32,058 nucleotides of DNA from Acidobacteriota bacterium (GTDB lineage Bacteria > Acidobacteriota > Vicinamibacteria > Vicinamibacterales > UBA2999): the NCBI GenBank assembly GCA_027622905.1, contig JAQBVV010000023.1, forward strand, positions 1-32,058, in the 5' to 3' direction. The notes under the pieces were generated by a model, which had not been told where the DNA came from, did no database searches, and saw only the letters and a program-made list of their open reading frames with translations. Made by a program: the position numbers and the translations under genes. Positions 1 to 19,461 of this stretch are shown piece after piece. Position 1 is the first letter of the stretch. Each line of letters starts with the position of its first letter.

Positions 1-2
1 AG

Positions 3-643: not shown

Positions 644-677
644 ACCGGCAGCGGTGAGTGGGCGTACGGGACGGACG

Positions 678-2562: not shown

Positions 2563-3873
2563 CTAGTGCTGACGGCGAAGGAACGCCGGCACGTCCAATG
2601 GCGAGGAGCCCTCGGCCTCGGCTCCCGCCCCCCCGTCCACGCCTCCCGGCTCGGCAGATGGTGAGGGGGTCAGCGGAAGACTCAGTTCGAGACGCGGACG
2701 TCGGCTCACCATGAGTGAGGCTGACGCCGGCGTGTCCGCGGGCCGCTGGGCCGGGAACGCGGGGGTCCGTTTCTCCGCCTCCGAGGCCTCCGCCGACCGG
2801 GCCAGATGCTCGGTATAGCTGGAAAGGTCCACGGGCGTCTGCAGCCCGGCGGCCGCGACAGCAGCGGGACGACTCTGGCGCTCGAAGCCCGTCGCGATCA
2901 CGGTGATCTTGATCTTCCCCGCCAGACTCGGATCGACCACGGCCCCGAAGATGATGTTGGCATCCTCGTGCGCCGCTTCCTGGATGACGCACGACGCCTC
3001 GTTGACTTCCATCAAAGACAGATCCGGACCACCGGTGACGTTGATGATGACGCCACGAGCGCCGTGGACCGACCCGTCTTCGAGCAGTGGGCTGGCAATC
3101 GCCTTCTGCGCCGCCTGCATCGCGCGATTCTCGCCCTCGGCGATGCCGGTGCCCATCATCGCCACGCCCATCGAGGACATGATCGTCTTGACGTCGGCGA
3201 AGTCCAGGTTGATCAACCCTGGAACGAGAATCAAGTCGGAGATGCCCTGGATCGCCTGGCGCAACACATCGTCGGCCATCGCAAACGACTCGATGAGCGG
3301 CGTGTCGCGATCGATGATGCCGAGGAGGCGTTCGTTGGGAATCGTGATGACCGTATCCACGCAGTCCCTGAGCAACTCGAGGCCGGCTTCAGCGTGCATC
3401 GCGCGCCGTTTCCCCTCGAACCTGAAGGGCTTGGTAACGACGGCCACCGTCAGCGCCCCAAGCTCGCTCGCCAGACTCGCAATCACCGGGGCCGCCCCCG
3501 TGCCGGTGCCTCCGCCAAGGCCGGTGGTGATGAAGATCATGTCAGCGCCTGACAGCGACTGAATGATCGACTCTGTGTCCTCCAGCGCCGCCTGCCGTCC
3601 GATGTTCGGATCGGCGCCGGCACCGAGGCCCTTCGTCAGCTTCTGTCCCAGCTGGATCTTGACCGACGCCGCATTCTGGTCGAGGGCCTGCACATCGGTG
3701 TTGGCGACGATGAACTCGACGCCGCCGAGACCTGCCGCCACCATCCGGTTCACGGCATTGCTGCCGCCGCCGCCGACACCCACTACCTTGATCTTCGCGC
3801 CCTGGCGCGCATCGGGATCCAGTGTCATTCGCAGCGCCTCTGCGCCGCGCTCGAGTGGTGCGCCCTGTCTCAT
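2563..3873 (-). CDS. ftsZ: Cell division protein FtsZ
   Basis: Tubulin-like GTPase that polymerises into the cytokinetic Z-ring. The product is 436 residues. The GTP-binding glycine signature GGGTGTG is at 120-126, preceded by the N-terminal GVGGGGSNA loop at 32-40. The T7 catalytic loop N222-x-D224-x-x-D227 is intact, so the protein should be an active GTPase. The conserved core ends near residue 335. A linker of about 90 residues rich in Ala, Pro and Ser then leads to the C-terminal peptide [10 protein letters not shown], which fits the tail that binds FtsA and other Z-ring anchors. The ATG at 3873 has a GGAGG five bases upstream (3883-3879); an internal ATG at residue 16 is less likely. 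It follows ftsA by 42 nt and is the last division gene of the cluster. Confidence 0.97.
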
Positions 3874-3878
3874 ATCAA

Positions 3879-3883
3879 CCTCC
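3879..3883 (-). promoter_or_regulatory. Shine-Dalgarno site of ftsZ
   Basis: GGAGG on the minus strand ends five bases before the ATG at 3873. It supports that start over the internal ATG 45 nt downstream. Confidence 0.75.
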
Positions 3884-3915
3884 GTGTACCGCGGGTCCGA
3901 CTCGGCAAACCCACC

Positions 3916-5148
3916 TTAGAAGAACTCCTTGAAGATGCCGCGCAGTCGCCCGGTCAACCTCGCCAACGCGCCGACGCCGACACCTGACACGTCGGATACC
4001 CGATTGCGATGCGCATACAGCACCAACCCCACCGGGGTCGCAAGCGCCGGGCTGTTGACGTGGTCGGCCAGCCCACCGATATCGCCGGGAGCGCCACGTC
4101 GAACGGGCAGGTCGAAGATCTGTTCCGCCATCTCCGGCATGCCGTCGAGAATGGATCCTCCGCCCGTCAAGACGATGCCCGAGTTGAGCGCCTTCTCGAA
4201 CCCGCCCCGCTGAATCTCGTCCCAGACCAGGTGGAACATCTCCTCGGCGCGGGGCTGAAGAATCTCGGAGAGAATGCGGCGCGCCAGCAGTCTCGGCTTG
4301 CGGCCCCCGACGCTGGCCACTTCGATCGTCGCGTCCTCATCCACCATCGACGACAGCGCGCACCCGCTCTTCCGCTTGACCTTCTCCGCCTCCGGAATGG
4401 GCGTGCGGAGACCGACGGCGATGTCGTTGGTGAAATGGTCGCCGCCCACGGCGATGACGCCGGTGTGCCAGAGGCATCCCCGCTCGAAGATCGCCAGGTC
4501 CGCGGTACCGCCTCCGATGTCCACCAGAGCTACGCCGAGTTCCTTCTCGTCCTGCGTCAGCACCGCTTCGGCCGCGGCCAGTTGCTCGATGACCGTGTCC
4601 AGCACGGCCACGCCGGCCCTGTTCACGCAGGAAATGATGTTTTGCGTGGACGAGGTGGCTCCCGTCACGACATGCACGTTGACCTCGAGGCGCGCGCCGG
4701 TCATACCCACCGGAGCTCCGATTCCGTCATGCTCGTCGACTACGAAATCCTGCGGAAGGACGTGGAGAATCTCGCGCCCCGTCGGCAGCGCCACCGCCTT
4801 GGCCGCGTCGATGGCCCGGCGCACGTCGTCTCTGGTGATCTCTCTGTTCTTCCCGGCCACCGCGATGACGCCACGGCTGTTGAAACCCTTGATGTGTGGC
4901 CCTGACAGCGACAGGTGGACGGAATCGATCTCGATGCCGGCCATCAGTTCCGCCTCGCCGATGGCCTTCTTGATCGAGTCCACGGCGGCCTCGAGATTCA
5001 CGACGACGCCGCGCTTGATGCCTCGTGACTCGGCGACGCCGAGTCCGACAATGTCGATGCGGCCGTCGTCGAGGCATTCCCCGACCACGGCACTCACACC
5101 AGACGTACCCACGTCAAGCCCGACGATATAGCGTTCCTTGCGATTCAC
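3916..5148 (-). CDS. ftsA: Cell division protein FtsA
   Basis: Actin-like ATPase that anchors FtsZ to the membrane and signals to the septal synthase. The product is 410 residues. The N-terminal phosphate-1 loop GLDVGTSGVSAV is at about 10-21. The phosphate-2 motif DIGGGTADLAIF lies in the middle, and an adenosine-type LTGGGS motif comes later. The 1C subdomain of FtsA fits residues of about 80-165. The last 15 or so residues (ARLTGRLRGIFKEFF) form a basic, amphipathic helix that matches the membrane-targeting sequence of FtsA. Translation starts at a GTG that shares four bases with the ftsQ stop (GTGA), with AGGAGG six bases upstream, so expression is likely coupled to ftsQ. ftsZ follows directly. 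Confidence 0.96.
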   Translation of the reverse strand: MNRKERYIVGLDVGTSGVSAVVGECLDDGRIDIVGLGVAESRGIKRGVVVNLEAAVDSIKKAIGEAELMAGIEIDSVHLSLSGPHIKGFNSRGVIAVAGKNREITRDDVRRAIDAAKAVALPTGREILHVLPQDFVVDEHDGIGAPVGMTGARLEVNVHVVTGATSSTQNIISCVNRAGVAVLDTVIEQLAAAEAVLTQDEKELGVALVDIGGGTADLAIFERGCLWHTGVIAVGGDHFTNDIAVGLRTPIPEAEKVKRKSGCALSSMVDEDATIEVASVGGRKPRLLARRILSEILQPRAEEMFHLVWDEIQRGGFEKALNSGIVLTGGGSILDGMPEMAEQIFDLPVRRGAPGDIGGLADHVNSPALATPVGLVLYAHRNRVSDVSGVGVGALARLTGRLRGIFKEFF

Positions 5149-5999
5149 TCACCGCCTCCTTGCACGCGCTGGACCCTGGCCGCCGTGGCCTGGGGCCGCA
5201 CGTATACGCGTTCGCCGAAACGGAGATCCACGTAGTCAATCTGCGGAACCTCCCTCCGTAGCGCAGGCGCCAGGTCGAGATACGACTGCAGGCGCTCGAT
5301 AAACTGCTCGTCTCCCACGCGCACCAGCGCCGTGTCGCCCTTGAGCAGGATCACGGCATCACGTGCGTCGCTGACGTCGATCTGCGACACGCGGGTGGCC
5401 AGATCAGGCCGCGCGTGAAGCGCCGCCAGCAGGCGCATGGCCAGTGCGGCGCGGCTCGCGTCGATCACAGGTGCGCCTGCCTCACGCGGGGCCGCCATCG
5501 CCAGTCCGTCAATGATCGGGAAGTCGAATTCGGCGTGGTCCGGACCGAACTCGTCGATGACGTTGCCACGCTGGTCAAGCAGGTAGATTGCGTCGCCGAT
5601 GCGGCCGAGTCCCACCGGCTGCCGCTCCTCGATCGCGACGTCGACGGTGCCCGGGAGCACTCGCCGGATGGCGACGTCTTCGACCCACGGCGACGCGAGC
5701 ATCCGCATGCGCCACGTCTCAAGATTCAGCAACAGCATGTTCCGGCCGCGCAATCCATCGAGCAGCGCCAAGGCGTCGCCCCGTGACACGCGCGTGTTGC
5801 CACTCACGGTGATGCGCGTGATCGTCAGCGCGTCGACAGTGAGAAACGAGCGCACCGCCAGGTAGGCGACGCCGAGGATCGCCACCGTGAGGACCGCGAC
5901 ACCGACGTAGACTCGCAACGTGCGCCCGCGGTCACGTCTGGCCACCGGTGAGACCCGTGCGCGTCGGAATCGTTTGTCCTTGGGCGCGGATACAGCCAC
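5145..5999 (-). CDS. ftsQ: Cell division protein FtsQ (POTRA domain)
   Basis: Bitopic divisome protein that links early and late division proteins through FtsL/FtsB. The product is 284 residues. A basic cytoplasmic tail of about 28 residues precedes one membrane helix at about 30-50. A POTRA domain follows at roughly 58-130, with the usual VSGNTRVS start, and then the FtsQ domain with a W-V-E-D-V and V-x-I-x-E-R-Q-P pattern. Its GTG start shares one base with the murC stop (TAGTG), and its stop overlaps the ftsA start by four bases. In many clusters murB and ddl sit between murC and ftsQ; here there is no space for them. Identification rests on topology, domain pattern and position, since FtsQ sequences diverge strongly. 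Confidence 0.9.
   Translation of the reverse strand: MAVSAPKDKRFRRARVSPVARRDRGRTLRVYVGVAVLTVAILGVAYLAVRSFLTVDALTITRITVSGNTRVSRGDALALLDGLRGRNMLLLNLETWRMRMLASPWVEDVAIRRVLPGTVDVAIEERQPVGLGRIGDAIYLLDQRGNVIDEFGPDHAEFDFPIIDGLAMAAPREAGAPVIDASRAALAMRLLAALHARPDLATRVSQIDVSDARDAVILLKGDTALVRVGDEQFIERLQSYLDLAPALRREVPQIDYVDLRFGERVYVRPQATAARVQRVQGGGE
5155..5160 (-). promoter_or_regulatory. Shine-Dalgarno site of ftsA inside the end of ftsQ
   Basis: A full AGGAGG lies six bases before the GTG at 5148. It fixes the ftsA start at the GTGA overlap with the ftsQ stop. Confidence 0.75.
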
Positions 6000-7435
6000 T
6001 ACCGGACCTCCTGGCGCTCGCGAAGGGCCGCCACCAACTGCCGCGGCACCGCGCCGATCGAGCCCGCGCCGAGCGTGATGACCGCGTCACCGGCCCGGGC
6101 GGCGGTGGCCAGATCCGTCACAAGATCGTCCAGAGCTCGCACCACGCGCACCGGTCGTCCAGAACCACGCCGGATGGCCTCGGCGGCTGCGTCGATCGTG
6201 ACTCCCGGAATCGGCTCCTCGCCCGCCGCGTAGATGTCAGTGAGCACGATCTCGTCGGCGTCTCGCAGCGACGGCCCGAACGCCTCCATCAGTCGCGCGG
6301 TGCGGGTGTAGCGGTGCAACTGGAAGGCCACGATCAATCGCCGGTCGACCGTGGCCCGCGCTGCCGACAGCGTCGCGGCGATCTCCGTCGGGTGATGCGC
6401 GTAGTCGTCGATCACCACCACGCCGCTGGTCTCGCCGTGGCGCTCGAACCGGCGCTCGGCTCCTTCGAAGGCCGCCAGCGCCGCAGCGACCTCCGGGAAC
6501 CCGACGCCGACTTCATCAGCGACCGCGACCGCCGCCAGGGCGTTCTGCAGATTGTGACGGCCAGGGACCGACAGTTCGAGGGTGCCGAGCCGCTCGCTCC
6601 GGCCATCGCGATGGCGGTGCACCACGCAACGGGCGCCGAACGGCCCGAGTTCCACCTCAGCGCCGGACAGGTGCGCGGGTCGGACGGGTCGGCTTCCGTC
6701 GTGCTGGCCGGCGCGATCGGCGCACAGACCGTAGGTCAGGACGCGACGTGTCAAACGCGGTAGCACGCTGGCCAGATGCGGATCGTCGGCGCATGCGATC
6801 ACGCAACCGTAAAAGGGCACCTTGTTCGCGAAGTCGACAAACGCCCCCTGGAGCTCGTCGAAGCTGCCGTAGCTCTCCATGTGTTCCTGGTCGATGTTGG
6901 TGACGACCGCGATCGACGGGTGCAACATCAGAAACGAACGGTCGCTTTCGTCCGCTTCTGCCACCATGAACTCGCCGCGGCCGAGCCGCGCGCCGCTACC
7001 GAACGCCCGAAGTCGGCCACCGATGACCGCATCGGGATCCAGGCCGCCTCTCTCCAGCACGAACGCGATCATCGACGTGGTCGTCGTCTTGCCGTGCGCC
7101 CCCGCCACCGCGATCGAGAACCGCATACGCATCAGCTCCGCGAGCATCTCTGCCCTCGGAATGACCGGAATGCCACGCCGGGTCGCCTCGGCGATCTCCG
7201 GATTCGCCAGACCGACAGCCGAGGACGCGACGACCACCTCCGCGCCACCGACGTGCTCGGCCGCATGTCCTTCGTGCACGGTGACTCCAAGCTTCTCCAT
7301 CCGCTGCGTCACGTCCGAGCGCCTCAGATCGGACCCGCTCACGTCGTATCCCTGGTTCGCAAGCAGTTCGGCAATGCCGCTCATGCCGCTTCCGCCGATG
7401 CCGACAAAATGAATCCGACGGGTCCTACCGAGCAA
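5999..7435 (-). CDS. murC: UDP-N-acetylmuramate--L-alanine ligase MurC
   Basis: Cytoplasmic ATP-dependent ligase that adds L-Ala to UDP-MurNAc, the first step in building the stem peptide. The product is 478 residues from a TTG at 7435. The N-terminal UDP-binding loop HFVGIGGSGMSG is at 9-20. The Mur-ligase P-loop AGAHGKTTT is at 111-119. DDYAHHPTEI, found in MurC enzymes, lies further along. The open frame extends upstream to 7642, but that part lies inside murG, so a start near the murG stop is needed. The TTG overlaps murG by 11 nt and a GAGG sits about 11 nt upstream; another TTG lies a few codons earlier. The enzyme is clear; the exact start is not. Confidence 0.93.
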   Translation of the reverse strand: MLGRTRRIHFVGIGGSGMSGIAELLANQGYDVSGSDLRRSDVTQRMEKLGVTVHEGHAAEHVGGAEVVVASSAVGLANPEIAEATRRGIPVIPRAEMLAELMRMRFSIAVAGAHGKTTTTSMIAFVLERGGLDPDAVIGGRLRAFGSGARLGRGEFMVAEADESDRSFLMLHPSIAVVTNIDQEHMESYGSFDELQGAFVDFANKVPFYGCVIACADDPHLASVLPRLTRRVLTYGLCADRAGQHDGSRPVRPAHLSGAEVELGPFGARCVVHRHRDGRSERLGTLELSVPGRHNLQNALAAVAVADEVGVGFPEVAAALAAFEGAERRFERHGETSGVVVIDDYAHHPTEIAATLSAARATVDRRLIVAFQLHRYTRTARLMEAFGPSLRDADEIVLTDIYAAGEEPIPGVTIDAAAEAIRRGSGRPVRVVRALDDLVTDLATAARAGDAVITLGAGSIGAVPRQLVAALRERQEVR

Positions 7436-8516
7436 GTGCCAGCACCTCGTCAACGATGACCTTTGCCGCGTCGGGTCGCGCCAGATTCTTCGCCGCGTTC
7501 TCCATCGAGCGGCGCAGGTCCGGATCGCCAGCCACCGCCAGCACCTCTGCGGCGAGCCGACCACCGTCGAGTTCGCGCTGATCGAGCACGCGCACCGCGC
7601 CCTGCGCAGACAGCGCCTGCGCGTTGTGGCGCTGGTGATCATCGGTCGCCGTCGGCAGCGGCACGAGAATCGAGGCCCGGCGCGCCGCCATCAGCTCGGC
7701 CAGCGTCGTCGCGCCCGCTCGACACACCACCAGGTCAGCCGCTTTCATCTCCCGGTCCATATCGAACAGAAACGGCTCGACCCTGGCATCGAGTCCGGCA
7801 CGCTGGTACGCGCTCCGCACGAGGCCCTGATCCTGCTCTCCGGTCTGATGCGTAACGACCAGTCCTGGAGGGCCGATGGCGAGCGTCGCCGCAGCGTCAG
7901 CCATGGCCACGTTGATTGCGTGTGCGCCCTGGGAGCCTCCGAACACGAGTACCCTGACGCGCCCGGGCGTCCCCTCACGCTCACGCGCCACGTCCTGTGT
8001 TGAAGCGAAGAACTCCGGCCGGACCGGGTTTCCCGTCAGAACTGCCTTGCGCCCGAAGAACCGCGCGCTTTCCTGATACGTCACGGCGGCCGTATCGACG
8101 ATCCGCGCCAGCAGCCGATTGGTGACGCCGGGCATCGCGTTCTGCTCCATCAGCAATGTCGGTATGCCGCGCACAGCGGCGAGCAGCACCACCGGGCCGG
8201 AGCTGTAGCCCCCGACGCCGATGACGACAGACGGCCGACGCCTGCTCAGCACGCGCCACGCATCGACCGCACTGACGGGTAGCAGCGCGATCCCGCGGAT
8301 GATCGACCGGACCGAACCACCCTTCAAGCCGGCACTGCGAATCGTATCGAGGGCGAACCCCTCGTGCGGCAGGACGCGCGCCTCGAGGCCAGTCGACGTC
8401 CCGACAAACGTCACCTCGGCGTCCGGCACTCGCGCGAGCAGTTCGCGCGCGACGGCGATCCCCGGATACAGGTGCCCCCCAGTCCCGCCGCCGGCCACCA
8501 GCACTGATAGACCCAT
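7425..8516 (-). CDS. murG: UDP-GlcNAc:undecaprenyl-PP-MurNAc-pentapeptide GlcNAc transferase MurG
   Basis: Membrane-associated GT28 glycosyltransferase that turns lipid I into lipid II on the inner face of the cytoplasmic membrane. The product is 363 residues, a normal length. The lipid-binding glycine loop AGGGTGGHLYPG is at 8-19. A second glycine-rich stretch IGVGGYSSGP lies near residue 100. The donor-site block FGGSQGAHAIN and the VVCRAGATTLAEL segment of the C-terminal domain are both present. The ATG at 8516 follows the ftsW stop by three bases, and the end overlaps the start of murC, so the gene is tightly packed in the operon. Confidence 0.97.
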   Translation of the reverse strand: MGLSVLVAGGGTGGHLYPGIAVARELLARVPDAEVTFVGTSTGLEARVLPHEGFALDTIRSAGLKGGSVRSIIRGIALLPVSAVDAWRVLSRRRPSVVIGVGGYSSGPVVLLAAVRGIPTLLMEQNAMPGVTNRLLARIVDTAAVTYQESARFFGRKAVLTGNPVRPEFFASTQDVAREREGTPGRVRVLVFGGSQGAHAINVAMADAAATLAIGPPGLVVTHQTGEQDQGLVRSAYQRAGLDARVEPFLFDMDREMKAADLVVCRAGATTLAELMAARRASILVPLPTATDDHQRHNAQALSAQGAVRVLDQRELDGGRLAAEVLAVAGDPDLRRSMENAAKNLARPDAAKVIVDEVLALAR

Positions 8517-8519
8517 CCA

Positions 8520-9620
8520 TCACACTTCCGCTGATTCGTGTTGCGAGATGTTCAGCAATACGCCCATCGCCGCCAGGCTCATCACCAGCGAGGACCCACC
8601 TGCGCTGACCAGCGGCAGCGGAATACCCTTGGTCGGCATGAGGCCGAGCACGACGCTCATGTTGACGAACGCCTGGGCGACGATCATCGTCGTCAGGCCG
8701 AGCGCGATGAACGAGCCGAAACTGTCTGGCGCACGCATCGTGATCCGCAATCCGCGCCAGGCGATCAGGCAGAAGCAGGCGAGGATCGCCGTCGCGCCGA
8801 TCAGACCGAGTTCCTCGCCGATGACTGCAAAGATGAAATCCGTGTGAGGCTCCGGGAGGTAGAAGAGCTTCTGCACGCCTTCCATCAACCCGCGCCCGAA
8901 CACGCCCCCGGTGCCCACGGCGATCAGCGACTGGATGATCTGGAAGCCGTCGCCCAGCGGATCGGCCCACGGGTCCCAGAAGGCGAGGAGTCGACGACGA
9001 CGGTACGACGCACTGACCAGGACGAGATAGACGGCCGGAGCCATCGCGAGCAACGCGCCCACGAAATAGCGATAGTGCAAGCCGGCAGCGAAGACCATGA
9101 CCACGACGATCAGCAGGAGCGACAGCGCGGTGCCGAAGTCCGGCTGCAGGAGGATCAGCCCCACCATTCCGCCAACGACAATCCCGATCGGCAACAACGA
9201 GTAGGTCAACTCGTCGATCCTGTGCATGCGCCGCTCAAGCATCAGCGCGGTGAACAGCACGCAGACGAGCTTGGCCAGCTCGGACGGCTGAATCCCGAGC
9301 CCGCCGATACCGAACCAGCGACGGGTCCCGTTGATGGGACTGCTGAAGAGCACGGCCACCAGTGTCAATGACACCAGTGCGATGAGCGCCCAGACGAACC
9401 TGTCGTCGCGATACCTGCGATAGTCGACACGCATCGCCACCGTCAGGGCGACCAGCCCGATCGCGGCCCACATCATCTGCTTGATGACGAACCGGTCTGA
9501 CTGCTGGTACCGCTCGAGCGCCACCAGCGCCGAGGCGCTGTACACCATCACGATGCTGGCGCAGATCAGCAGCAACGTCGCGGTGAACAGTACCCGGTCA
9601 GATTTGAGCGTGCGTGCCAC
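8520..9620 (-). CDS. ftsW: Septal peptidoglycan glycosyltransferase FtsW (SEDS family)
   Basis: Polytopic SEDS protein that polymerises lipid II glycan strands at the septum together with the class B PBP FtsI. The product is 366 residues with about ten membrane helices. Family marks include NGTRRWFGIGGLGIQPSELAKL at 98-119 and the periplasmic loop PEPHTDFIFAVIGEELG, where D261 matches the SEDS catalytic aspartate. A final GGSSLVMSLAAMGVLLN segment is also typical. Translation starts at a GTG preceded by an A/G-rich stretch containing GGGGGGAAGGA. It is the first gene after the 373-bp gap that splits the cluster, so it may also have its own promoter. Confidence 0.96.
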   Translation of the reverse strand: MARTLKSDRVLFTATLLLICASIVMVYSASALVALERYQQSDRFVIKQMMWAAIGLVALTVAMRVDYRRYRDDRFVWALIALVSLTLVAVLFSSPINGTRRWFGIGGLGIQPSELAKLVCVLFTALMLERRMHRIDELTYSLLPIGIVVGGMVGLILLQPDFGTALSLLLIVVVMVFAAGLHYRYFVGALLAMAPAVYLVLVSASYRRRRLLAFWDPWADPLGDGFQIIQSLIAVGTGGVFGRGLMEGVQKLFYLPEPHTDFIFAVIGEELGLIGATAILACFCLIAWRGLRITMRAPDSFGSFIALGLTTMIVAQAFVNMSVVLGLMPTKGIPLPLVSAGGSSLVMSLAAMGVLLNISQHESAEV

Positions 9621-9993
9621 GTGAATCCTTCCCCCCTACAGAGAACCACCCGCCGTTCCGAAACATAGGCCGTCGATGGATCGGCTAAGATCCCCGATTC
9701 ACCGACTCGACGACCACAACCGCAAGCGCATCTGCGGCGATCGTGGCGGTGAGCGTTCAGCGGTCATCAGTCGGCCCGTGAGACGGGACACCGACCTCGC
9801 AGACCGGGGTGGTCTGCGTTCCCAGCGGCTGGCTCCCCTCCGCGCCGAACCGACTGATGACTGCTCATCGCTCACGCGCCCCCGGGCGCGCCGCGCCTAC
9901 CGTGGTTGTCTGGCCCTCCTCGCTCTCCTTCTCGTCACAGTGCTGCTCGTCACCGCCTTCCGTTACCGTGCGCGTCTCTCACGAGCGCGGCTT
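9621..9993. other. 373-bp non-coding gap between murD and ftsW
   Basis: This is the only long gap inside the division cluster. No open frame here has credible coding character. It holds the inverted repeat at 9749-9875, a GC-rich palindrome (9875-9890, arms CGCGCCC/GGGCGCG) and a short direct repeat (TCACGAGCGC at 9979 and 9994). A weak -10-like TATGTT lies on the minus strand before ftsW, without a matching -35, so an ftsW promoter cannot be claimed. Confidence 0.6.
9749..9875. repeat. Long imperfect inverted repeat enclosing hairpins
   Basis: The 26-nt arms 9749-9774 and 9850-9875 are complementary at 23 of 26 positions; a G-T wobble makes it 24 if read as plus-strand RNA. The 75-nt interior contains a 5-bp stem with a GAG loop (CCCGT/ACGGG, 9775-9787) directly abutting the outer stem. 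It also contains an 8-bp perfect stem with a 5-nt loop (CGCAGACC/GGTCTGCG, 9798-9818) and a small CCAGC/GCTGG palindrome (9822-9832). The layout fits a multi-branched RNA, an operon-internal processing or attenuation site, or a small non-autonomous mobile element. No target-site duplication is obvious. Confidence 0.7.
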
Positions 9994-11358
9994 TCACGAG
10001 CGCTGCTGCGACAACCGCATCACTTCGTCCTTGAAGCAGTCGCCGCGTTCGGCGTAGTCGCGAAACCAGTCGAAGCTCGCGCAGGCGGGTGCCAGCAGCA
10101 CCACGCCGCCGGGTGCCGCAAGCTCGTAGCCGCGCGACACCGCTTCGCGTAGCGAGTCCGCCTGCACGACCGGCACGACATCGCCCAGCGCCTCCCGCAC
10201 ACGCGGCGCCGCTTCGCCGATCGCCACCACGGCCCGACCGCTGACCGACAACGGCCCCCGCAACTGCCGGAGATCGCCCCCTTTGAAACGTCCGCCGATG
10301 ATGGCCACCACATCGGCAAAGCTCTCGATGGACCGGCTCGCAGCCTCCACGTTGGTGGCCTTCGAGTCGTTCACGAACCGCACGCCGCCCACCTCGCCAG
10401 CCGGCTCCATGACATGCGCGAGCCCGCGGAATCCGCGCAACCCCGCGGTCATCGCCCGGGGCGATGCGCCAGCCAGCGACGCTGCGCCGGTGGCCGCGAG
10501 TACGTTGTTGAGCATGTGGCGGCCGGGCAGCTCCACGGCCCCCAGCGGCACCAGCTGTTCCGCACCCGCCACGGTCCGCTTCACGATCCAGTCGCCGTCC
10601 ACGGCGAAGCCAGCGTCGGCCACGCCCGACAGCGCGAACGACACACGCTGCGCTGTCACGCCTTCGCTCCGCGCGGTGACGACCGGGTCATCCGCGTTGA
10701 CGAGCGCCCAGTCGTCGGCCGTCTGGTTGGCGAAGATGCGGGCCTTGGCCGCTGCGTACGATTCGACACTCGCGTGCCGGTCCAGGTGGTCGTCCGCCAC
10801 GTTCAGCCAGACCGCGATCCACGGTCGAAACGTTGTCGTCGTCTCGAGCTGAAAGCTGCTCGCCTCCACCACGTGCAACGTCTCCGGCGTTGACGCCTCG
10901 ACCTGTGTACTGAGTGGCACGCCGATGTTGCCGCCAACCAGTACTGGCAGACCGGCCGCTGTCAGCATCCGGCCGAGGAGTGTCGTCGTGGTCGACTTGC
11001 CCTTGGTGCCGGTGATGGCCAGGATCCGCCCGCGAATCCACCGCGAGGCCAGCTCCAGCTCGCCGACGATCTCAACGCCTCGGGCGCGAGCCACGTCGAG
11101 CACGGGCTGCTCGACGGGCACCCCGGGACTCACCACCACCAGATCCGCAGCCGCCATCGTGTCCGACCGGTGGCCACCAACCTCGATCTCCACTCCCGCC
11201 GCACGCAGCCGCTCGGCGCCATCGAACGCGTCACGAGCCTCGGTGAGCGTCACGATCGCGCCCCGCCTGGCAAGCTGCTCGGCGGCGGCGACGCCGCTAC
11301 GGCCCGCGCCGACAACCACCACACGCCGCCCGTGAACGGAGAATCCACTGTTGCCCAC
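9994..11358 (-). CDS. murD: UDP-MurNAc-L-alanine--D-glutamate ligase MurD
   Basis: Cytoplasmic ligase adding D-Glu to UDP-MurNAc-L-Ala. The product is 454 residues. A Rossmann-like N-terminal domain begins with VVVVGAGRSG (13-22). The P-loop TGTKGKST is at 116-123. The central domain holds EASSFQL and NVADDHLDRH. The C-terminal domain carries the NDSKATN block at 330-336. The conserved 'HRxE' just before that block reads H315-V-M-E318 here, so the usual Arg is missing. The GTG start at 11358 lies four bases after the mraY stop. Downstream on the same strand comes the 373-bp gap. Confidence 0.96.
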   Translation of the reverse strand: MGNSGFSVHGRRVVVVGAGRSGVAAAEQLARRGAIVTLTEARDAFDGAERLRAAGVEIEVGGHRSDTMAAADLVVVSPGVPVEQPVLDVARARGVEIVGELELASRWIRGRILAITGTKGKSTTTTLLGRMLTAAGLPVLVGGNIGVPLSTQVEASTPETLHVVEASSFQLETTTTFRPWIAVWLNVADDHLDRHASVESYAAAKARIFANQTADDWALVNADDPVVTARSEGVTAQRVSFALSGVADAGFAVDGDWIVKRTVAGAEQLVPLGAVELPGRHMLNNVLAATGAASLAGASPRAMTAGLRGFRGLAHVMEPAGEVGGVRFVNDSKATNVEAASRSIESFADVVAIIGGRFKGGDLRQLRGPLSVSGRAVVAIGEAAPRVREALGDVVPVVQADSLREAVSRGYELAAPGGVVLLAPACASFDWFRDYAERGDCFKDEVMRLSQQRS

Positions 11359-11362
11359 ACCA

Positions 11363-12448
11363 TCACCGCAACTTCAACGTCGTCAGACTGAAGAGCGCAA
11401 AAATCACCGACAGGATCAGAAAGCGCGTGTTGACCTTGGGTTCGCTCCACCCGCTGAGTTCGAAGTGGTGGTGGAGGGGGGCCATCTTGAAGATGCGACG
11501 ACCCTTCATCTTGAAATACCCCACCTGCAGGATCACCGAGAGTGCCTCGATGACGAAGACGCCGCCGACGATCGGCAGCAGCAGCTCCTGCTTGATGAGG
11601 ATGGCCACGGTGCCGAGTGCGCCGCCCAGCGCGAGCGAGCCGACGTCACCCATGAAGATCTCCGCAGGGTACGAGTTGTACCAGAGGAATCCCAGACTGG
11701 CTCCGACCAGTGCCCCGCAGAACACCGTGAGCTCGCCGGCCGGCGCGAACCGCACGAGAAGCAGGTAGTCCGCCAGTACGGCGTGGCCGGTCACGTAGGC
11801 GAGGGCCGTGAACGCCGCAGCCGCGACGCCGAACGTGCTGATCGCGAGGCCGTCGAGGCCATCCGTCAGGTTGACCGCATTGGTCGCACCGACGAGCACC
11901 AGCACGGCAAAGGCGACGTAGAACCAACCCAGATCCGGAATGAGATTCTTGAAAAACGGAAAGATCAGCCGGGTGTTGTACAGACCGTTGTCTGCAAGCG
12001 CCATCAACGCCAGGCCCACGCCCACCGCGACCAGCACCTGCAGCCCGAGCTTGTAGCGGGGACGGAGTCCATGGTGCGAACGGCGCGCGACCTTCAGATA
12101 GTCATCCGCGAACCCGACGGCCCCGAACGCGCACGTCGCCAGCACGGCGATCCAGACATAGAAGTTGGCGAGGTCGGCCCACAGCAATGTCGGTCCGACC
12201 GCCGCCGCCAGGATCAGCAATCCGCCCATCGTCGGCGTTCCGGCCTTGGCATTGTGAGACTGAGGACCCTCCTGCCGAATGACCTGCCCGATCTGGAACG
12301 CACGCAGTTTCGCGATCATCCACGGGCCCAGCAACAGGCTGATCGCCAGCGCCGTCACGCTGGCCGCCGCGGTGCGGAACGTGATGTACCGCGTGACGTT
12401 CAACACCCCGAACCACGGCGCCAGGTCCGGCAACAGGTAGTAGAGCAT
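11363..12448 (-). CDS. mraY: Phospho-N-acetylmuramoyl-pentapeptide-transferase MraY
   Basis: Polytopic membrane enzyme that transfers phospho-MurNAc-pentapeptide to undecaprenyl phosphate, giving lipid I. The product is 361 residues from the ATG at 12448, with about ten membrane helices. Key motifs are [13 protein letters not shown] (64-76), the Mg-binding DDYLK (115-119), the NLTDGLDG loop (193-200) and the late APLHHHFE histidine motif. The frame stays open for 45 codons further upstream, but those lie within murF. The ATG shares one base with the murF stop (TGATG), a normal coupling arrangement. Confidence 0.97.
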
Positions 12449-13863
12449 CAGGCGAACTCCGCCACGATGCGGTCCACCACGATATCGGTCCGGATACCGC
12501 GAGAGCCCTTGACCAGCACCAGATCGCCAGGACGGATCGCCGAGGCGACCGTCGGCGCCGCCGACTCGCTGCCGTTGATCCACGTCACGGCCGACGCCGG
12601 CATGCCGGCATCGACGGCGGCGTCGGCCAGGACCCGCGCGGGCCCGCCGCCAACCGAGAACAGCAGTTGCAACCCGGCGGCGGCCGCCACCGCACCCGAG
12701 CGCCGGTGCAGTGCCTCCGCGTGCTCGCCAAGTTCAAGCATCTCGCCGAGTACCGCCACCTTCCGGGATGCCCGCGTCTCGTTGGCCACGACGTCGAGCG
12801 CGGCCGCCAGCGCCGCGGGACTCGAGTTATAGGAGTCGTCAATCAGCACCGTTCCGCCGCGCAGGTGCCGCACAACACCGCGACGGTCTGCCGCCTCCAA
12901 CCGGCTGGCGGCCGAGACGACGTCGTCGATCGGTGTCCCGAGATCCAGCGCAACGGCGGCCGCCGCCAGCACGTTGGCGAGGTTGCCGCCCCCGATCAGT
13001 GGCGTGCGAATCTGTCGCTCACCCGCAGGGGTGACCATCCGGGCGCTCATGCCGTCAATCCCAAGCCGCGTGACGTCGCACGCGCGCACGGTCGAAGCCG
13101 CTGACGTACCGAACGTCAGCGTTCGACCCGGAAACGCACCGACCCTCGCCATCACCCGCGCGTCATCGGCGTTGCACACGAGCACGTCATCGGCACCTGC
13201 GTCCTCAAGGATCTCGGCCTTCGCATCGGCGATGTCATCCGGTGAATCGAAGAAGCCCATGTGAGCATCACCGACGTTGGTCCACACGCGGATGTCCGGC
13301 TCCGCAATCGCGACGAGCGTGCTGATCTCCCCCGCGTGATTCATACCCAGTTCCATGACGGCCACGTCTGGCCTGGTCCGCAGTTGCAACAGCGACAGCG
13401 GCAACCCGATGTGGTTATTCAGATTCCCCTTGTTCTTCACCACCCGACCGCGTCCACGGAGCAACTCCGCGATCGCTTCCTTCGTGGTCGTTTTCCCGGC
13501 GCTCCCGGTAATGGCGACCACCCGTGTGCCGCTCGCCATTCGCACCGCGTGCGCCAGGGCCTGCAGCGCCGCGGTGGTCTCGCCAACCTCGACGATGCCA
13601 CCTCCGCCACGAGCCGTCGTCTGCCGCGCATCGATACGTCCCCGCTCCACGAGCGCGCCGCCCGCGCCTCTCTCGAATGCGTCGGCGATGAAGTGGTGCG
13701 CGTCATACCGCGGCCCTTTCAGCGCGACGAAAAACTCCCCTTCGCGCAGCGCGCGCGTATCACTGACGACCTCTCCGACGACGCTCGACGGATCACCCGA
13801 CAGGATCTGGCCGCCCACCGCCTCGGCCACCCACCCAAGCGTGAGCCGCAGGTCCTCACCCAA
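12448..13863 (-). CDS. murF: UDP-MurNAc-tripeptide--D-alanyl-D-alanine ligase MurF
   Basis: Cytoplasmic ligase that adds the D-Ala-D-Ala dipeptide and so completes the UDP-MurNAc-pentapeptide. From a TTG at 13863 the product is 471 residues, near the normal family length. It has the N-terminal SDTR motif in the UMP-binding domain, a P-loop [11 protein letters not shown], the [13 protein letters not shown] block specific to Mur[11 protein letters not shown], and [10 protein letters not shown] in the last domain. The frame is open to 13920, but that part overlaps murE. The only near-boundary start is the TTG, which overlaps murE by eight bases and has a weak upstream purine signal. Start uncertain; identity is not. 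Confidence 0.93.
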
Positions 13864-15382
13864 CCCGCGACCTGAGACGCCGTGCGTCCAACGCCTCGCG
13901 AGCGACCACCACGTCGTCAAAAGGCACCAGACCGCTGCCGATCTGCTGGTACTTCTCGTGCCCTCTGCCCGCGATCAGCACGACGTCACCCGGCTCCGCC
14001 TGGCCGATGACCCGACGAATCGCATCGCCGCGATCGACGATCGTCAGCACCTGCGCGCCACGCTGGCGCGTTTCCCCTTGCGCGCCGAGGTTCACCTCCT
14101 CGATGATGCGGTGCGGATCCTCGTTCCGTGGGTTGTCCGACGTGATGCACACGAGATCGCTCAACCGCGCGGCGACCATGCCCATCAGCGGCCGCTTCGT
14201 GCGATCGCGTCCACCACCCGCACCAAAGACCGTGATCAGCCGCCGCGCGGCCAGGGGGCGCGCGACTTCCAGGAGATTTCTGAGCGCGTCATCCGTGTGC
14301 GCGTAGTCGACGACGACGGTGACGTCGTCAAGCGACGACGACGCCCGCTCGAATCGACCAGGGACACCACGGAGCGCGGTCACCCCCCGCTCGATCGCCT
14401 CCAGCGGCACGCCCAGCGCCGCGGTGACGCCGACCGCCGCCAGGATGTTGTAGACGTTGGGCCGACCGACCAGCGCCGAACGCACGTGCACGGTGCCCTG
14501 GGGCGTCCGCGCATCGAACTCCACTCCGTCGAACGAGAGCGACAAGGGACCCGGCGTGACATCGGCCGCCCGGTTGACGGCGTAGGTGACAGGGCGCTGC
14601 GCGATGTCCACGACGGCGGCACCACGCGGGTCATCCGTGTTGACCGCAGCCGGAGCGCCTGCAGGCAACATGTCAAACAGGCGTGCCTTGGCGGCGAAGT
14701 AGCGGTCCATGTCCCCGTGAAAGTCGAGATGGTCCCGCGTCAGATTCGTGAACATGGCGGCCGATATATGGACACTGTCTGCACGGCGAAGCGCGAGTCC
14801 GTGCGACGACACCTCCATCGCGCAGGCACCGCAGCCTGCATCGACCATCTGCCGTAACATGGCGTGCAGGTCTGGCGCCTCCGGCGTCGTGTTCGTGGCC
14901 ACCATCTCCTGTGCGCCCGTGCGATACGCGACGGTTCCCAGGAGCCCGCAACGCGTGCCGGCCGCCTCGAAAATCGACGCCACCAGATAACTGGTCGTCG
15001 TCTTGCCGTTGGTCCCGGTGATCCCCACGACGCGCATGTCGCGGCTTGGGTGACCGAAGTACGACGCCGCGAGTCCCGACAACGCGAGCCGTGCGTCCGG
15101 GACGACGACCCACGGCACGTCCGATGCGCCCGCCTCCGTCCCTTTCTCGCGCTCGGCAACAACCGCAGCCGCCCCCGCGGCAATCGCCTGGGCCGCGAAG
15201 TCCGCACCATCCGCCCTGAGCCCCCGCAGGGCCACGAACACCCACCCTGGCTTCACGTGTCGCGAATCGTGCGTCACCCCGAGACACGGTGTGTTGAGGG
15301 AGCGCGAGTGGCCATCGACCAGCGGCCGCTCGCCGGGCGACCCCGTGGGATCGACGTCTCGCAACAGCTCTGCAACGGTCAT
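13856..15382 (-). CDS. murE: UDP-MurNAc-tripeptide synthetase MurE, probably meso-DAP-adding
   Basis: Cytoplasmic ligase adding the third stem residue to UDP-MurNAc-L-Ala-D-Glu. The product is 508 residues. It has a THDSRHVKPG UDP-binding segment near 37-46, the P-loop TGTNGKTT at 122-129, NTTPEAPDLH and EVSSHGL in the substrate site, and the C-terminal specificity motif DNPR at 416-419. DNPR indicates meso-diaminopimelate rather than lysine, which fits a diderm cell wall. The usual VDYAHTPDAL reads VDYAHTDDAL here. The ATG overlaps the ftsI stop by four bases (ATGA), and the end overlaps the proposed murF start. Confidence 0.96.
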   Translation of the reverse strand: MTVAELLRDVDPTGSPGERPLVDGHSRSLNTPCLGVTHDSRHVKPGWVFVALRGLRADGADFAAQAIAAGAAAVVAEREKGTEAGASDVPWVVVPDARLALSGLAASYFGHPSRDMRVVGITGTNGKTTTSYLVASIFEAAGTRCGLLGTVAYRTGAQEMVATNTTPEAPDLHAMLRQMVDAGCGACAMEVSSHGLALRRADSVHISAAMFTNLTRDHLDFHGDMDRYFAAKARLFDMLPAGAPAAVNTDDPRGAAVVDIAQRPVTYAVNRAADVTPGPLSLSFDGVEFDARTPQGTVHVRSALVGRPNVYNILAAVGVTAALGVPLEAIERGVTALRGVPGRFERASSSLDDVTVVVDYAHTDDALRNLLEVARPLAARRLITVFGAGGGRDRTKRPLMGMVAARLSDLVCITSDNPRNEDPHRIIEEVNLGAQGETRQRGAQVLTIVDRGDAIRRVIGQAEPGDVVLIAGRGHEKYQQIGSGLVPFDDVVVAREALDARRLRSRVG

Positions 15383-17433
15383 GGGGTGAGGCCAGCTGCC
15401 GGGAGCACGTCGGCCACCGGAGGCGGGACGACTTCCCGGATCACGTTTCGATCAAGCGTGAGCGTCGCAACCACGCCAGACGCGATCTGACTCCCCGCCG
15501 CTGGCTCCTGTTCGACGACGACACCGGCGCCGCGAAGGCGCGGCGTCATACCCAGTCCCGCGAGTACGCGCAAGGCGTCGCGGGCTCCAAGACCACGCAG
15601 GTCGGGAAACACCGCCGTGGATCCCGTCGGGCCGCTGGCGACGGTGACAAACGATGGAAACTGAGCCGGTCTGGCAACCGGTCGTGGTCTCGGTGCCTCC
15701 GACCCGGCCATCAACACCGGTGGCGCGGCATGCAGCGTCGGTGCCACGCCGTAGTGGCGCAGCGCCGCGTCCGCGATTCGCCGAAAAATCGGGCCGGCGA
15801 CTCCACTGCCGTAATACAGGTTCTTACCGTGCGGTGAATCGATCACCACCACGATGGTGAACATCGGCTCTCGCGACGGAACGAACCCGACAAACGACGC
15901 GTTGTAATCCGACTTCGAGTACCGGCCGTTGACGACCTTCTGCGCCGTGCCCGTCTTCCCTGCCGTCGGGAATCCCGGAACCTTCGCGCGCGCGCCCGTG
16001 CCCCGCTCGACGACCTGCTCCATGATCTCCGTCACGACCGCTGCCGTGCTCCTCGAGACCGCCCGTCGCACGACCGTGCGCTCGGTCGGCGTCCGCACGC
16101 CGTCGGCAATCACCGCGCCGACCACGCGCGGCGTGAGTAGCTCGCCGCCATTGGCGATCGCGCTCACCGCTGCGGCCATCTGCATCGGGGTCACCCCGAT
16201 CTGGTAGCCCATCGAGACTGACGCAAGAGCGCTGTCGTTGAGCTTTGACGGGTCCCAGACGATGCCGCCACTCTCCCCGGGGAAGTCCCGCGACGACCGC
16301 GCGCCGAAGCCGAAACGCTCCACGTACCGGCCCAGCCGCTCCCGCCCGACCTGCAGCCCCACCTTGATGGCGCCCACGTTGCTCGAGTGCACGATCACAT
16401 CGGTGAACGACAGGATGCCGCTGCGGTGATCGTCATTGATGACGCGACGACCGAAGCGAATCTCGCCGGCGCTAACGTCGATCGGGGCGTTCGGCTCGAC
16501 GACGTTCTCCTCGAGCGCCGCAGATGCGGTGACGATCTTGAACGTCGAGCCCGGCTCATAGATGTCCTGCGTGGCCCGATTGCGCTGCGACTCCGGCTGC
16601 GCATCCCGGTACGCATTCGGGTTGAAGGTCGGCCAGCTGGCCAGCGCGAGGATCTCTCCCGTGCGCGGGTCCATGACCACCGCCGTGCCACCCGCCGCGA
16701 CGTTTTCCTCGACGCCAGCGCGGAGTTCCCGCTCGGCGACGTGCTGGAGGTACTCGTCGATCGTCAGTTCCAGCGTGGCGCCGGTTGTCGGAGGTCGCTC
16801 CACCCGGCTGAACGCGCGCCGTCTGGCATCGGTCTGAATCAGCACGGTGCCCGGCTGTCCGCTGACCACCGTGTTGTAGGCCGCTTCGATGCCGCGCAGC
16901 CCGGTGTTATCGATGCCGACGTAGCCCAGCACCTGCGCGGCCAGGTCCTTGTTGGGATAGAACCGCCGGTTCTCCTTCATGAACCCGACGCCTTCCAGAT
17001 CCAGATCCGCGACACGACGCGCGTCATCCGGCGACACCTGTCGTCGAACGTAGGCAAACGCCCGGTCGCGCGTGAAACGCTCGGTCAGCGTCTCCTTCTC
17101 CTCCGGGCCGCAGTCGGCCAGCGCCAGGCAGAGCGCCGCCGCCGCCGCCGCGGGATTGTCAATCTCCGTGGGAACCGCGTAAATGGAGTCCGCCTCGACG
17201 CTGTATGCGAGCACGCGACCGTTGCGATCGAGGATGTCTCCGCGCCTCGCCGTGGTCTCGACGGTGCGGAGCTGCTGCCGCTCGGCGCGCTCGGTCAGCT
17301 CCGCGTGCTGCCCTATCTGCAGGTAGACGAGCCGTGCCTCTATGGCCGACGACCAGATCGCGAGCACCGACACTGCGACGATCAGCCGCCGTTTGAGTGT
17401 GATGCGCCAGGCGAACGCAGGCTTGTCGGTCAC
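15379..17433 (-). CDS. ftsI: Septal class B penicillin-binding protein FtsI with one PASTA domain
   Basis: Transpeptidase that cross-links septal peptidoglycan with FtsW. The product is 684 residues. A short cytoplasmic N-terminus and one membrane helix (about 14-32) lead into the pedestal domain, with the RRGDILDRNG box at 63-72. The transpeptidase motifs are S296-T-F-K299, S350-S-N352 and K493-T-G495. After a Pro-rich linker (about 570-600), residues about 605-662 form one PASTA domain (FPDLRGLGARDAL at its start). The GTG start at 17433 has a perfect AAGGAGGT seven bases upstream. A terminal PASTA domain is typical of PBP2x-type proteins and is absent from enterobacterial FtsI. Confidence 0.96.
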   Translation of the reverse strand: MTDKPAFAWRITLKRRLIVAVSVLAIWSSAIEARLVYLQIGQHAELTERAERQQLRTVETTARRGDILDRNGRVLAYSVEADSIYAVPTEIDNPAAAAAALCLALADCGPEEKETLTERFTRDRAFAYVRRQVSPDDARRVADLDLEGVGFMKENRRFYPNKDLAAQVLGYVGIDNTGLRGIEAAYNTVVSGQPGTVLIQTDARRRAFSRVERPPTTGATLELTIDEYLQHVAERELRAGVEENVAAGGTAVVMDPRTGEILALASWPTFNPNAYRDAQPESQRNRATQDIYEPGSTFKIVTASAALEENVVEPNAPIDVSAGEIRFGRRVINDDHRSGILSFTDVIVHSSNVGAIKVGLQVGRERLGRYVERFGFGARSSRDFPGESGGIVWDPSKLNDSALASVSMGYQIGVTPMQMAAAVSAIANGGELLTPRVVGAVIADGVRTPTERTVVRRAVSRSTAAVVTEIMEQVVERGTGARAKVPGFPTAGKTGTAQKVVNGRYSKSDYNASFVGFVPSREPMFTIVVVIDSPHGKNLYYGSGVAGPIFRRIADAALRHYGVAPTLHAAPPVLMAGSEAPRPRPVARPAQFPSFVTVASGPTGSTAVFPDLRGLGARDALRVLAGLGMTPRLRGAGVVVEQEPAAGSQIASGVVATLTLDRNVIREVVPPPVADVLPAAGLTP

Positions 17434-17440
17434 TGACTAG

Positions 17441-17448
17441 ACCTCCTT
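17441..17448 (-). promoter_or_regulatory. Strong Shine-Dalgarno site of ftsI
   Basis: AAGGAGGT, the full anti-16S complement, lies seven bases before the GTG at 17433. It fixes the ftsI start and suggests efficient initiation here, in the 32-nt gap after ftsL. Confidence 0.85.
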
Positions 17449-17465
17449 CTCACACGTCAACGCGC

Positions 17466-17888
17466 TTACCGACGCGCAACCACCGAGTTCGACGGAGGCG
17501 CCGGAGGTGATACGCGCTCGATCACCGACGCCTCGCCGGGACCTGGTGACACCATCTGGAGCTGCTCGATCGCCAGGCGCTCGATGCGAATCGGAGAACG
17601 CAACGTGTTCAGTTCAAGTTGCAGGTGCCGATTGATTTCGATCTCGACCGCCCGCTCCCGCTCCATCTGCTCGAAGCTATAGCCGTAGCGCAGCAGTTCG
17701 AAGTGCTGGAACGCCCAGAACAACAGGACCGCGACGAGGAACACACCGGTGGCGGTGGCCTTCACCATCTCCCGATGCCGACGGTGATCGACTTCGCGCA
17801 CGATCGGGTTGTTCCGAACATCCTTCCGGATGGCGTATTCAAACTTTTCGCTGTTCATGGTCTGCGCCGTCTCCGTACGCCGACTCAC
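17466..17888 (-). CDS. ftsL: FtsL-like cell division protein
   Basis: Small bitopic divisome protein expected to form a coiled-coil complex with FtsB and FtsQ. From a GTG at 17888 the product is 140 residues. It has a basic cytoplasmic tail, one membrane helix (ATGVFLVAVLLFWAF) and an extracytoplasmic Glu/Arg/Leu-rich helix likely to form a coiled coil, ending in a Pro/Ser-rich tail. The GTG gives a four-base GTGA overlap with the rsmH stop, with a GGAG nine bases upstream. An ATG at 17858 (130 residues) is the main alternative. FtsL proteins share little sequence, so the call rests on size, topology and the rsmH-ftsL-ftsI order. Confidence 0.8.
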   Translation of the reverse strand: MSRRTETAQTMNSEKFEYAIRKDVRNNPIVREVDHRRHREMVKATATGVFLVAVLLFWAFQHFELLRYGYSFEQMERERAVEIEINRHLQLELNTLRSPIRIERLAIEQLQMVSPGPGEASVIERVSPPAPPSNSVVARR

Positions 17889-18766
17889 GCCGCACACTCC
17901 GCGGCGCGCAGCTTCGCGCTTCGCGCCCGTGGGTTCCGATTCGCTTCGACCTCTCCCGGTACGACGGGCCGCTTGGTGCGAATCGTCAATTCGACGTCGC
18001 CGGCCGCCTGCAGCGCGCGCAATGTGTGCTTCACGATTCGGTCCTCCAGCGAGTGAAAGCTGATGATCACCAGTCGCCCGCCTGGCCGCAGCCGGCGCAC
18101 GGCCTGCGTCAGAAACACGTCGAGCTCCTCCAGTTCGCGGTTCACCCAGATTCGGATCGCCTGAAACGTCCGGGTGGCCGGGTCGATGCGCGAATAGCCC
18201 TTTCGCGGAACGGCCCGTCGTACGATCTCCGCAAGCTGCCCCGTCGTACTCACGGGCGACCGCTGCCTCGCACCCGTGATCGCGCGGGCGATCCGCCGGG
18301 AGTGGCGCTCCTCGCCGAACTCGTAGATCACGTCGGCGAGCGTCTTTTCGTCGGCGTCACTGATGGCCTCCGCCGCCGTCGGACCGGTGGTCGGGTCCAT
18401 CCGCATATCGAGCGGCTCGTCCCGCCGGAAGCTGAACCCACGACCCGGCCCATCGAGCTGCATCGACGAGACGCCAAGATCCGCGAGCAGGCCGTCGACC
18501 CCATCGATGCCCAGCTCGTCGAGTACGGCATCCAGTCGCCGATAGTCGGCATGCACCAGCGTCACGCGGTCCCCGAAGGCGGCGAGACCGACCGCGGCAT
18601 CCGCCAGCGCAGCCGGATCGCGATCCAACGCGATCAGCCTGGACGCCCCGGCCTCGAGCACCGCGCGAGCGTGCCCGCCGTACCCGACCGTGCAATCCAC
18701 AAACACCCCGCCCCTCGCGGGCGCCAGATGCTCGAGCACTTCCGCAACCATGACCGGCTCGTGCAT
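17885..18766 (-). CDS. rsmH: 16S rRNA (cytosine-1402-N4)-methyltransferase RsmH
   Basis: SAM-dependent methyltransferase that N4-methylates C1402 in the 16S rRNA P-site; older name MraW. The product is 293 residues. HEPVMVAEVLEHL opens the protein, the SAM loop is DCTVGYGGHARAVLE, and ALDRDP and LADLGVSSMQLD follow. The late block LVIISFHSLEDRIVKH is diagnostic for the family. The ATG at 18766 has AAGGA seven bases upstream; a GTG directly before it (18769) is possible. It begins 17 bases after mraZ, and its stop overlaps the proposed ftsL start. Confidence 0.96.
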   Translation of the reverse strand: MHEPVMVAEVLEHLAPARGGVFVDCTVGYGGHARAVLEAGASRLIALDRDPAALADAAVGLAAFGDRVTLVHADYRRLDAVLDELGIDGVDGLLADLGVSSMQLDGPGRGFSFRRDEPLDMRMDPTTGPTAAEAISDADEKTLADVIYEFGEERHSRRIARAITGARQRSPVSTTGQLAEIVRRAVPRKGYSRIDPATRTFQAIRIWVNRELEELDVFLTQAVRRLRPGGRLVIISFHSLEDRIVKHTLRALQAAGDVELTIRTKRPVVPGEVEANRNPRARSAKLRAAECAA

Positions 18767-18783
18767 CACGCTTTCCTTCGCGA

Positions 18784-19242
18784 CTAGATACCGTGCTCCG
18801 AGAGCCGCAAGCCGTCTTCATCGGTCCACGGTTCCCCCTTGAGCTTGTGAAGGAACCGCTCGTCGTTCCAGACTTCGAGATGATTGATTCGCCCAAGTAC
18901 ACGTACATCGCCGACAATGGCTGCGCCGTCTCGGAGGTGCGCGGGGATCACCACCCTCCCCTGGCCGTCGAGTTCTGCGGCCTGCCCGTAGTAATTGACG
19001 CGGTCGAGAAACTTCAGGCGTGAGGGATGATTACTGGGGACGCGGGAAAGGTTTTGCTCGATCTCGAGCCACACCGTCATCGGGTAGATGCGTACGCACT
19101 CGCCCGTGAGGCTCGTCACGAAAACGTCCGATCCTCGCTGGTCACGTATGACCCCCCGAAACATCGTGGGCACCTTCAGGCGGCCTTTATCGTCAATCCT
19201 GGCCGAAGAGCTGCCCCTGAGTCCCTGATGCTCCACTTTCAT
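18784..19242 (-). CDS. mraZ: MraZ, dcw-cluster transcriptional regulator
   Basis: DNA-binding protein with two AbrB-like swapped-hairpin halves that regulates its own operon in studied bacteria. The product is 152 residues from the ATG at 19242. The first half contains ARIDDKGRLKVP and the second ELDGQGRVVIPAHLR, the paired 'D-x-[KQ]-G-R-[LV]' motifs of the family. Compared with most MraZ proteins, the N-terminus before LRG is a few residues longer. A TTG at 19248 or GTG at 19236 could also be used, and no clear Shine-Dalgarno precedes any of them. It is the first gene of the cluster, with promoter and operator-like repeats at its start. Confidence 0.94.
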   Translation of the reverse strand: MKVEHQGLRGSSSARIDDKGRLKVPTMFRGVIRDQRGSDVFVTSLTGECVRIYPMTVWLEIEQNLSRVPSNHPSRLKFLDRVNYYGQAAELDGQGRVVIPAHLRDGAAIVGDVRVLGRINHLEVWNDERFLHKLKGEPWTDEDGLRLSEHGI

Positions 19243-19256
19243 CCACAAAAATCCAC
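19231..19256 (-). promoter_or_regulatory. Probable MraZ operator: three GTGGA repeats with 10-bp period
   Basis: On the minus strand GTGGAT, GTGGAT and GTGGAG begin at 19256, 19246 and 19236, exactly ten bases apart. Characterised MraZ boxes are direct TGGG- or GTG-type repeats with one-helical-turn spacing, so size and phasing fit well. The repeats cover the predicted transcription start (about 19254) and the mraZ start codon, so bound MraZ would block initiation directly. Confidence 0.75.
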
Positions 19257-19260
19257 TCGG

Positions 19261-19289
19261 ATATTAAAGCCGCATCAGTAGGATGTCAA
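19261..19289 (-). promoter_or_regulatory. Sigma70-type promoter of the dcw cluster
   Basis: A perfect -35 hexamer TTGACA (19289-19284) is followed after exactly 17 bp by a -10 hexamer TAATAT (19266-19261). Transcription would begin near 19254, only about 12 nt before the mraZ ATG. It is the best promoter match I found in the window and sits where the main cluster promoter is expected. Confidence 0.75.
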
Positions 19290-19461
19290 CGGACAAACCA
19301 CTCATCCAGCAGCAGTTAGGCCACAACAGGCCTTGTTTTCGCCCGTTGTTCGTCTTGCTTGGTCCTAAACGCGGCGTGCTAGTCTCTGGGTCCATGTCTT
19401 CCCGCCCCAGGAAGGCGAGGAGCGTGTCTCCGAGCCCACTTCCGGTCGCGCCGGGCACACG

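Follow-up and report, generated by a model that had tools for sequence, protein, structure and literature searches.

The stretch of DNA analyzed here (the window, 32,058 nt) belongs to the genome of a Vicinamibacterales (Acidobacteriota) MAG, available as a 3.43-Mb draft in 239 contigs, and carries a dcw cluster of 14 genes, all of them on the minus strand, in which mraZ comes first, rsmH follows and ftsZ closes the series (Table 1). The mraZ product matches Pfam family PF02381 in two stretches (64.8 bits against a cut-off of 23), its translation displays the DxxxR motif in both domains (DDKGR and DGQGR), and solved structures exist for MraZ (1n0e, 9qlg, 9sx6), a family typified by a ring-shaped oligomer with DNA-binding and repressor activity.

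Table 1. Promoter elements, MraZ boxes and dcw genes identified in the window.
Feature	Position	Strand	Remarks
-35 hexamer TTGACA	19284..19289	minus	perfect match
Spacer between -35 and -10	17 nt	minus	
-10 hexamer TAATAT	19261..19266	minus	order consensus TACTAT
MraZ box 1 GTGGA	19252..19256	minus	position from sequence
MraZ box 2 GTGGA	19242..19246	minus	probable weak Shine-Dalgarno element for box-3 GTG
MraZ box 3 GTGGA	19232..19236	minus	GTG 19236-19234, probable conserved mraZ start codon
ATG inside box 2	19240..19242	minus	start proposed in the earlier note; in frame, lies 6 nt before the conserved GTG
mraZ, from box-3 GTG	18784..19236	minus	PF02381; stop codon included
rsmH (mraW)	17885..18769	minus	PF01795, E 1.8e-103; start ATG 18766 or GTG 18769
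ftsL	17466..17897	minus	PF04999
ftsI/PBP with PASTA domain	15379..17433	minus	
Mur ligase, murE position	13856..15382	minus	
Mur ligase, murF position	12448..13920	minus	
mraY	11363..12583	minus	PF00953, PF10555
murD	9994..11358	minus	
ftsW	8520..9620	minus	
murG	7425..8516	minus	
murC	5999..7642	minus	start codon may be further in
ftsQ	5145..5999	minus	
ftsA	3916..5148	minus	
ftsZ	2563..3873	minus	

Read on the minus strand, the region upstream of mraZ consists of TTGACA, 17 nt, TAATAT, ccga and then GTGGATTTTT GTGGATGAAA GTGGAGCATC, with the boxes beginning at 19256, 19246 and 19236. The earlier note had described a TTGACA-17-TAATAT promoter and three GTGGA boxes in exact 10-bp phase that span the predicted transcription start, extend into mraZ and head the whole division cluster, and this description is borne out: promoter and boxes are present, box 3 lies inside the coding sequence from either candidate start codon and mraZ is the first of the 14 dcw genes. 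Standard spacing from the -10 hexamer places the predicted transcription start at about 19254-19252, where it would be covered by box 1. No other sigma70-like site was found on either strand within positions 1-19400. Exact GTGG triples at 10-bp phase are likewise rare, with one in the window and two in the 3.43-Mb genome, and of these two only the mraZ site is made up of three GTGGA. The locus thereby presents at least three direct repeats with a GTG core, in 10-bp phase and near the mraZ promoter, which is what characterizes an MraZ operator; the placement of the boxes wholly upstream of the coding sequence, as seen in the studied species, is a usual feature of these operators, not a defining one. 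Judging from its sequence and from its conservation across the order (below), the site is very probably a standard MraZ operator, and family knowledge suggests that MraZ would bind and repress at these boxes.

The conservation of this arrangement was analyzed in an alignment of the region upstream of mraZ from 115 loci of the order, anchored on the DDKGR motif (order, family and genus codes, such as f1 or g9, are those of the genome search). The 12 GTGG letters of the boxes are all kept in 62 of the 115 loci and a single one is changed in another 44, giving 106/115 loci with at most one mismatch, and promoter and boxes hold a constant register across 64 genera. When information content is computed with one locus per genus (64 genera), box 1 emerges as the best kept box, with 2.0 bits per GTGG letter, and the TGG letters of boxes 2 and 3 come near 2.0 bits; information is also elevated over TTGACA and over the TA and AT of the -10 hexamer, and is about zero over most of the spacer. 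A perfect TTGACA with a 17- or 18-nt spacer is found in 93 of 99 order loci, and the gap between the -10 hexamer and box 1 is 4 nt in 87 of them. The chance expectation can be estimated at about 0.001 per locus (from 34 matches over the two strands of the 3.43-Mb genome, multiplied by some 180 positions). Since promoter and boxes stand in the same register before mraZ in 106 of 115 loci, chance is excluded, and the conservation of the repeats in related genomes, a check suggested in the earlier note, is upheld. As far as sequence can tell, promoter and boxes are a fixed promoter-operator module. A singular case is that of L017 (genome G020, genus g9), which shows neither promoter nor boxes upstream of mraZ, unlike its sister L014, and in which the mraZ frame runs without a stop for 939 aa across CGAGTCCGACTCC-like repeats; this state could reflect either a genuine rearrangement or a join made during assembly of the MAG, which is 88% complete.

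The start codon of mraZ had been assigned to the ATG inside box 2. Across the order, the nearest in-frame start is instead the first codon of box 3 in 28 genomes, which span 21 genera and families f1, f8 and f64 and comprise 27 called by script plus L010, scored by hand after the script chose a spurious ATG beside the anchor; this scoring considers ATG, GTG and TTG only and leaves out rare starts (CTG, ATT). Among the 27 genomes called by script, 26 have GTG as the box-3 codon and one has ATG, which is also the codon of L010. In-frame stops are found immediately upstream of the box-3 ATG in L010 and L011, and L018 has a TAG 12 nt ahead of its box-3 GTG; hence, these loci have no alternative start between promoter and anchor, unless within the conserved domain. 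In 12 genomes, a TTG located 12 nt upstream is likewise open. The position normally used by MraZ, 30 nt before the anchor, holds GTG, ATG or TTG in 77 of the 82 other genomes, whereas among the box-3 genomes it is mostly GTC or GTT for those of f8 and f64, and GGN predominates in the clade of the window. For f8 and f64, one substitution in the third letter, GTG to GTC or GTT, seems to have shifted the start to the box-3 GTG, which is in frame.

These patterns suggest that the conserved start of mraZ is probably the GTG of box 3, and that the ATG previously put forward is probably wrong. It could be argued that the operator is the same and that mraZ in this particular genome nonetheless starts at the box-2 ATG (19242-19240), after a leader of some 12 nt. 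That codon is the stronger of the two, it is in frame and it has the GGA of box 1 located 9 nt upstream. Yet it is common only to the window, L013 and L014, with relatives in the box-3 group carrying varied sense codons in its place (AGC, ACC, TCC, AGT, ACG and others), a GTG or ATG at box 3 is kept in all scorable members of the clade, and a 12-nt leader gives the ribosome less room, all of which makes this alternative unlikely. The 12-nt leader proposed earlier rested on the same ATG, and loses its support with it: measured from the conserved GTG, the predicted leader is about 18 nt. Nor is the suggestion of leaderless translation supported. An mRNA with its 5' end at the start codon, or at most 5 nt from it, would agree with the short distance between the -10 hexamer and the start codon, the sole point in its favor, but in nearly all genomes the conserved 4-nt gap between the -10 hexamer and box 1 sets the predicted +1 some 18 nt ahead of the GTG, or 12 nt ahead of the ATG, and no second promoter was found nearby. 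We therefore regard a leaderless mraZ as exceedingly improbable.

Initiation at the box-3 GTG would be assisted by a GGA or GGAG contributed by box 2 and lying 4-5 nt upstream. The window genome carries a CCTCC anti-Shine-Dalgarno, and the pairing predicted in the window is weak and alike for the box-3 and box-2 starts (-3.3 and -3.1 kcal/mol). Because rsmH in the clade of the window mostly begins with ATG, the GTG of mraZ looks operator-bound, as opposed to the outcome of a general preference for GUG, with too few genes to quantify the effect.

The evolution of the box-3 start was traced on an MraZ tree that omits the N-terminus and has few columns. The window falls in a clade of 19 rows with an SH-aLRT of 100, all of which start at box 3 except for one unscorable row. 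On so few columns, parsimony provisionally requires 4-5 changes of this trait, at least two of which are forced by well-supported branches. The fusion of operator and start codon has probably been reached more than once, apparently several times over, through loss of the usual start codon where the operator offered a GTG in frame.

In most other Vicinamibacterales, the start follows the first base of box 3 at a distance of about 10-25 nt. The GGAG of box 3 is then at Shine-Dalgarno distance and can putatively be used as such, and the mean predicted anti-Shine-Dalgarno pairing is -6.0 kcal/mol in these downstream-start genomes versus -4.4 in the box-3 group. A fourth box in 10-bp phase (GTGGTGCTC or alike) overlaps the start codon in L161, L159 and L162 (f7 g31) and in L149, L150 and L152 (f5 g155). 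In downstream-start loci such as L104, L112 and L114, box 3 often reads GTGGAGTAA or GTGGAGTAG, which puts a stop two codons after a start. Stops within three codons occur in the box frame of 33 out of 73 downstream-start genomes, whereas the other frames give 13 and 9. On these grounds box 3 (GTGGAGTAA) was considered as a short frame closed by a stop, an idea set aside because much of the excess may stem from the box letters GTGGAGTAA themselves and from the constraint to end this frame wherever it coincides with that of mraZ. One further locus, L109 (G199, f6 g131), has perfect boxes and no in-frame ATG, GTG or TTG between the stop in box 3 and the MraZ domain; its start may be the CTG before TTTCGAGGGC.

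Start-to-box distances were covered systematically for the Acidobacteriota, together with a dozen strays from other phyla. Many other Acidobacteriota have their boxes about 80-120 nt before mraZ. A set of AT-rich lineages of the phylum carries ATGGGA- or TTGGGA-type boxes. Among these, L069, L084, L170, L172 and L203 have their only or their nearest in-frame start at the first codon of box 3; the same is true of the first codon of box 2 in L171 and, setting aside a codon deep in the domain, in L066. In E. coli and the placeable strays (of 12, counting only those in which both boxes and annotated start could be placed, as several are unannotated or match the boxes poorly) a distance of 18-95 nt runs from the first base of box 3 to the start downstream. 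By eye, Bacillus velezensis presents a further GTGGGGG near the Shine-Dalgarno position, and for this reason the use of a box as Shine-Dalgarno element may be wider spread than its use as start codon.

The presence of box 2 or box 3 at the Shine-Dalgarno position in most of the order might be taken to mean that the repeats are kept chiefly for translation, as Shine-Dalgarno element and start, rather than as an MraZ operator. This is highly improbable, given that the best kept box is box 1, which sits at the predicted transcription start, that the 10-bp phase is maintained although the reading frame relative to the boxes varies among genomes, and that in other phyla boxes in this phase are kept at a long distance from the start codon.

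We consider it likely, on balance, that the locus is an autoregulatory dcw promoter-operator in which the GTG of box 3 initiates mraZ translation and box 2 acts as Shine-Dalgarno element. The proposal builds on direct observation of the sequence, of its conservation and of the loss of the start codon at the usual MraZ position. RNA polymerase would initiate inside box 1, 6-8 nt past the -10 hexamer, and MraZ, a repressor with a double AbrB-like domain, would bind the three phased GTGGA boxes on one face of the DNA, as its E. coli, Burkholderia and Mycoplasma counterparts suggest. Lying across boxes 1-3, it would cover the start region and block use of the promoter; PMC8475190 and PMC7761207 report such blocking of initiation for E. 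coli and suggest it for B. cenocepacia. The leader between operator and gene would have collapsed in this lineage, leaving box 3 as operator and start codon together and box 2 as the source of the upstream GGA or GGAG, and selection for repressor binding and for translation would hence act on the same bases.

This arrangement might also enclose a transcriptional and translational feedback loop in one 25-bp element, if MraZ translation needed RsmH while MraZ repressed rsmH. The bases shared by operator and start codon would hold mraZ to a weak GUG start, and RsmH (MraW), the methylase encoded by the next gene, acts on the ribosomal site in contact with the start codon; loss of rsmH in E. coli is reported to impair GUG and UUG initiation (cited in PMC13317604). 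We deem this loop distinctly improbable.

A genome-wide search for further MraZ targets using the three-box pattern with at most one mismatch yielded 34 matches versus 35 in the reversed control, and no regulon can be called because the two counts are virtually the same. The significance of the locus lies in its economy, with one short DNA element apparently read by three machines, as polymerase start, as repressor site and as ribosome entry with start codon. Changes in box 3 are thus predicted to alter repression and translation at once, and L010 and L011 illustrate the trade-off: their box 3 is ATGGA, a stronger start in a box weakened by the loss of one letter. In practical terms, gene callers may misplace the mraZ start in Vicinamibacterales.

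No report of start codons inside MraZ operators was found in the literature searched, outside which lie the primary papers Eraso 2014 and White 2022; as far as this literature shows, the operator is ordinary and its fusion with the start codon over some 20 genera is an unreported variant. The mraZ promoter of E. coli and its MraZ boxes (Eraso et al. 2014, via PMC8475190 and PMC7761207) resemble the window in that a promoter of the TTGACA type precedes three GTGG(G/A) boxes, set at 10-bp phase and placed ahead of mraZ (sequence L090), but the E. coli ATG lies 24 nt past the start of box 3, with a separate Shine-Dalgarno between them, where the window probably has its start codon in box 3 itself. 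The PmraBc promoter of Burkholderia cenocepacia, on which MraZ binding has been demonstrated by gel shift, likewise drives a whole-cluster operon and carries, past the -10, phased GTG repeats overlapping the transcription start, although the repeats are four and transcription starts 100 nt upstream of the first codon (PMC7761207). The site bound by MraZ in Mollicutes, (AAAGTGKN3)3, is also composed of 10-bp direct repeats with a GTG core, and differs in the core letters (Fisunov 2016, as cited in PMC5282649). The dcw leader of R. sphaeroides shares with the window a regulated mraZ 5' region, and represents the opposite extreme in architecture, with a long 5' UTR that harbors a terminator and the sRNA UpsM (PMC5089854).
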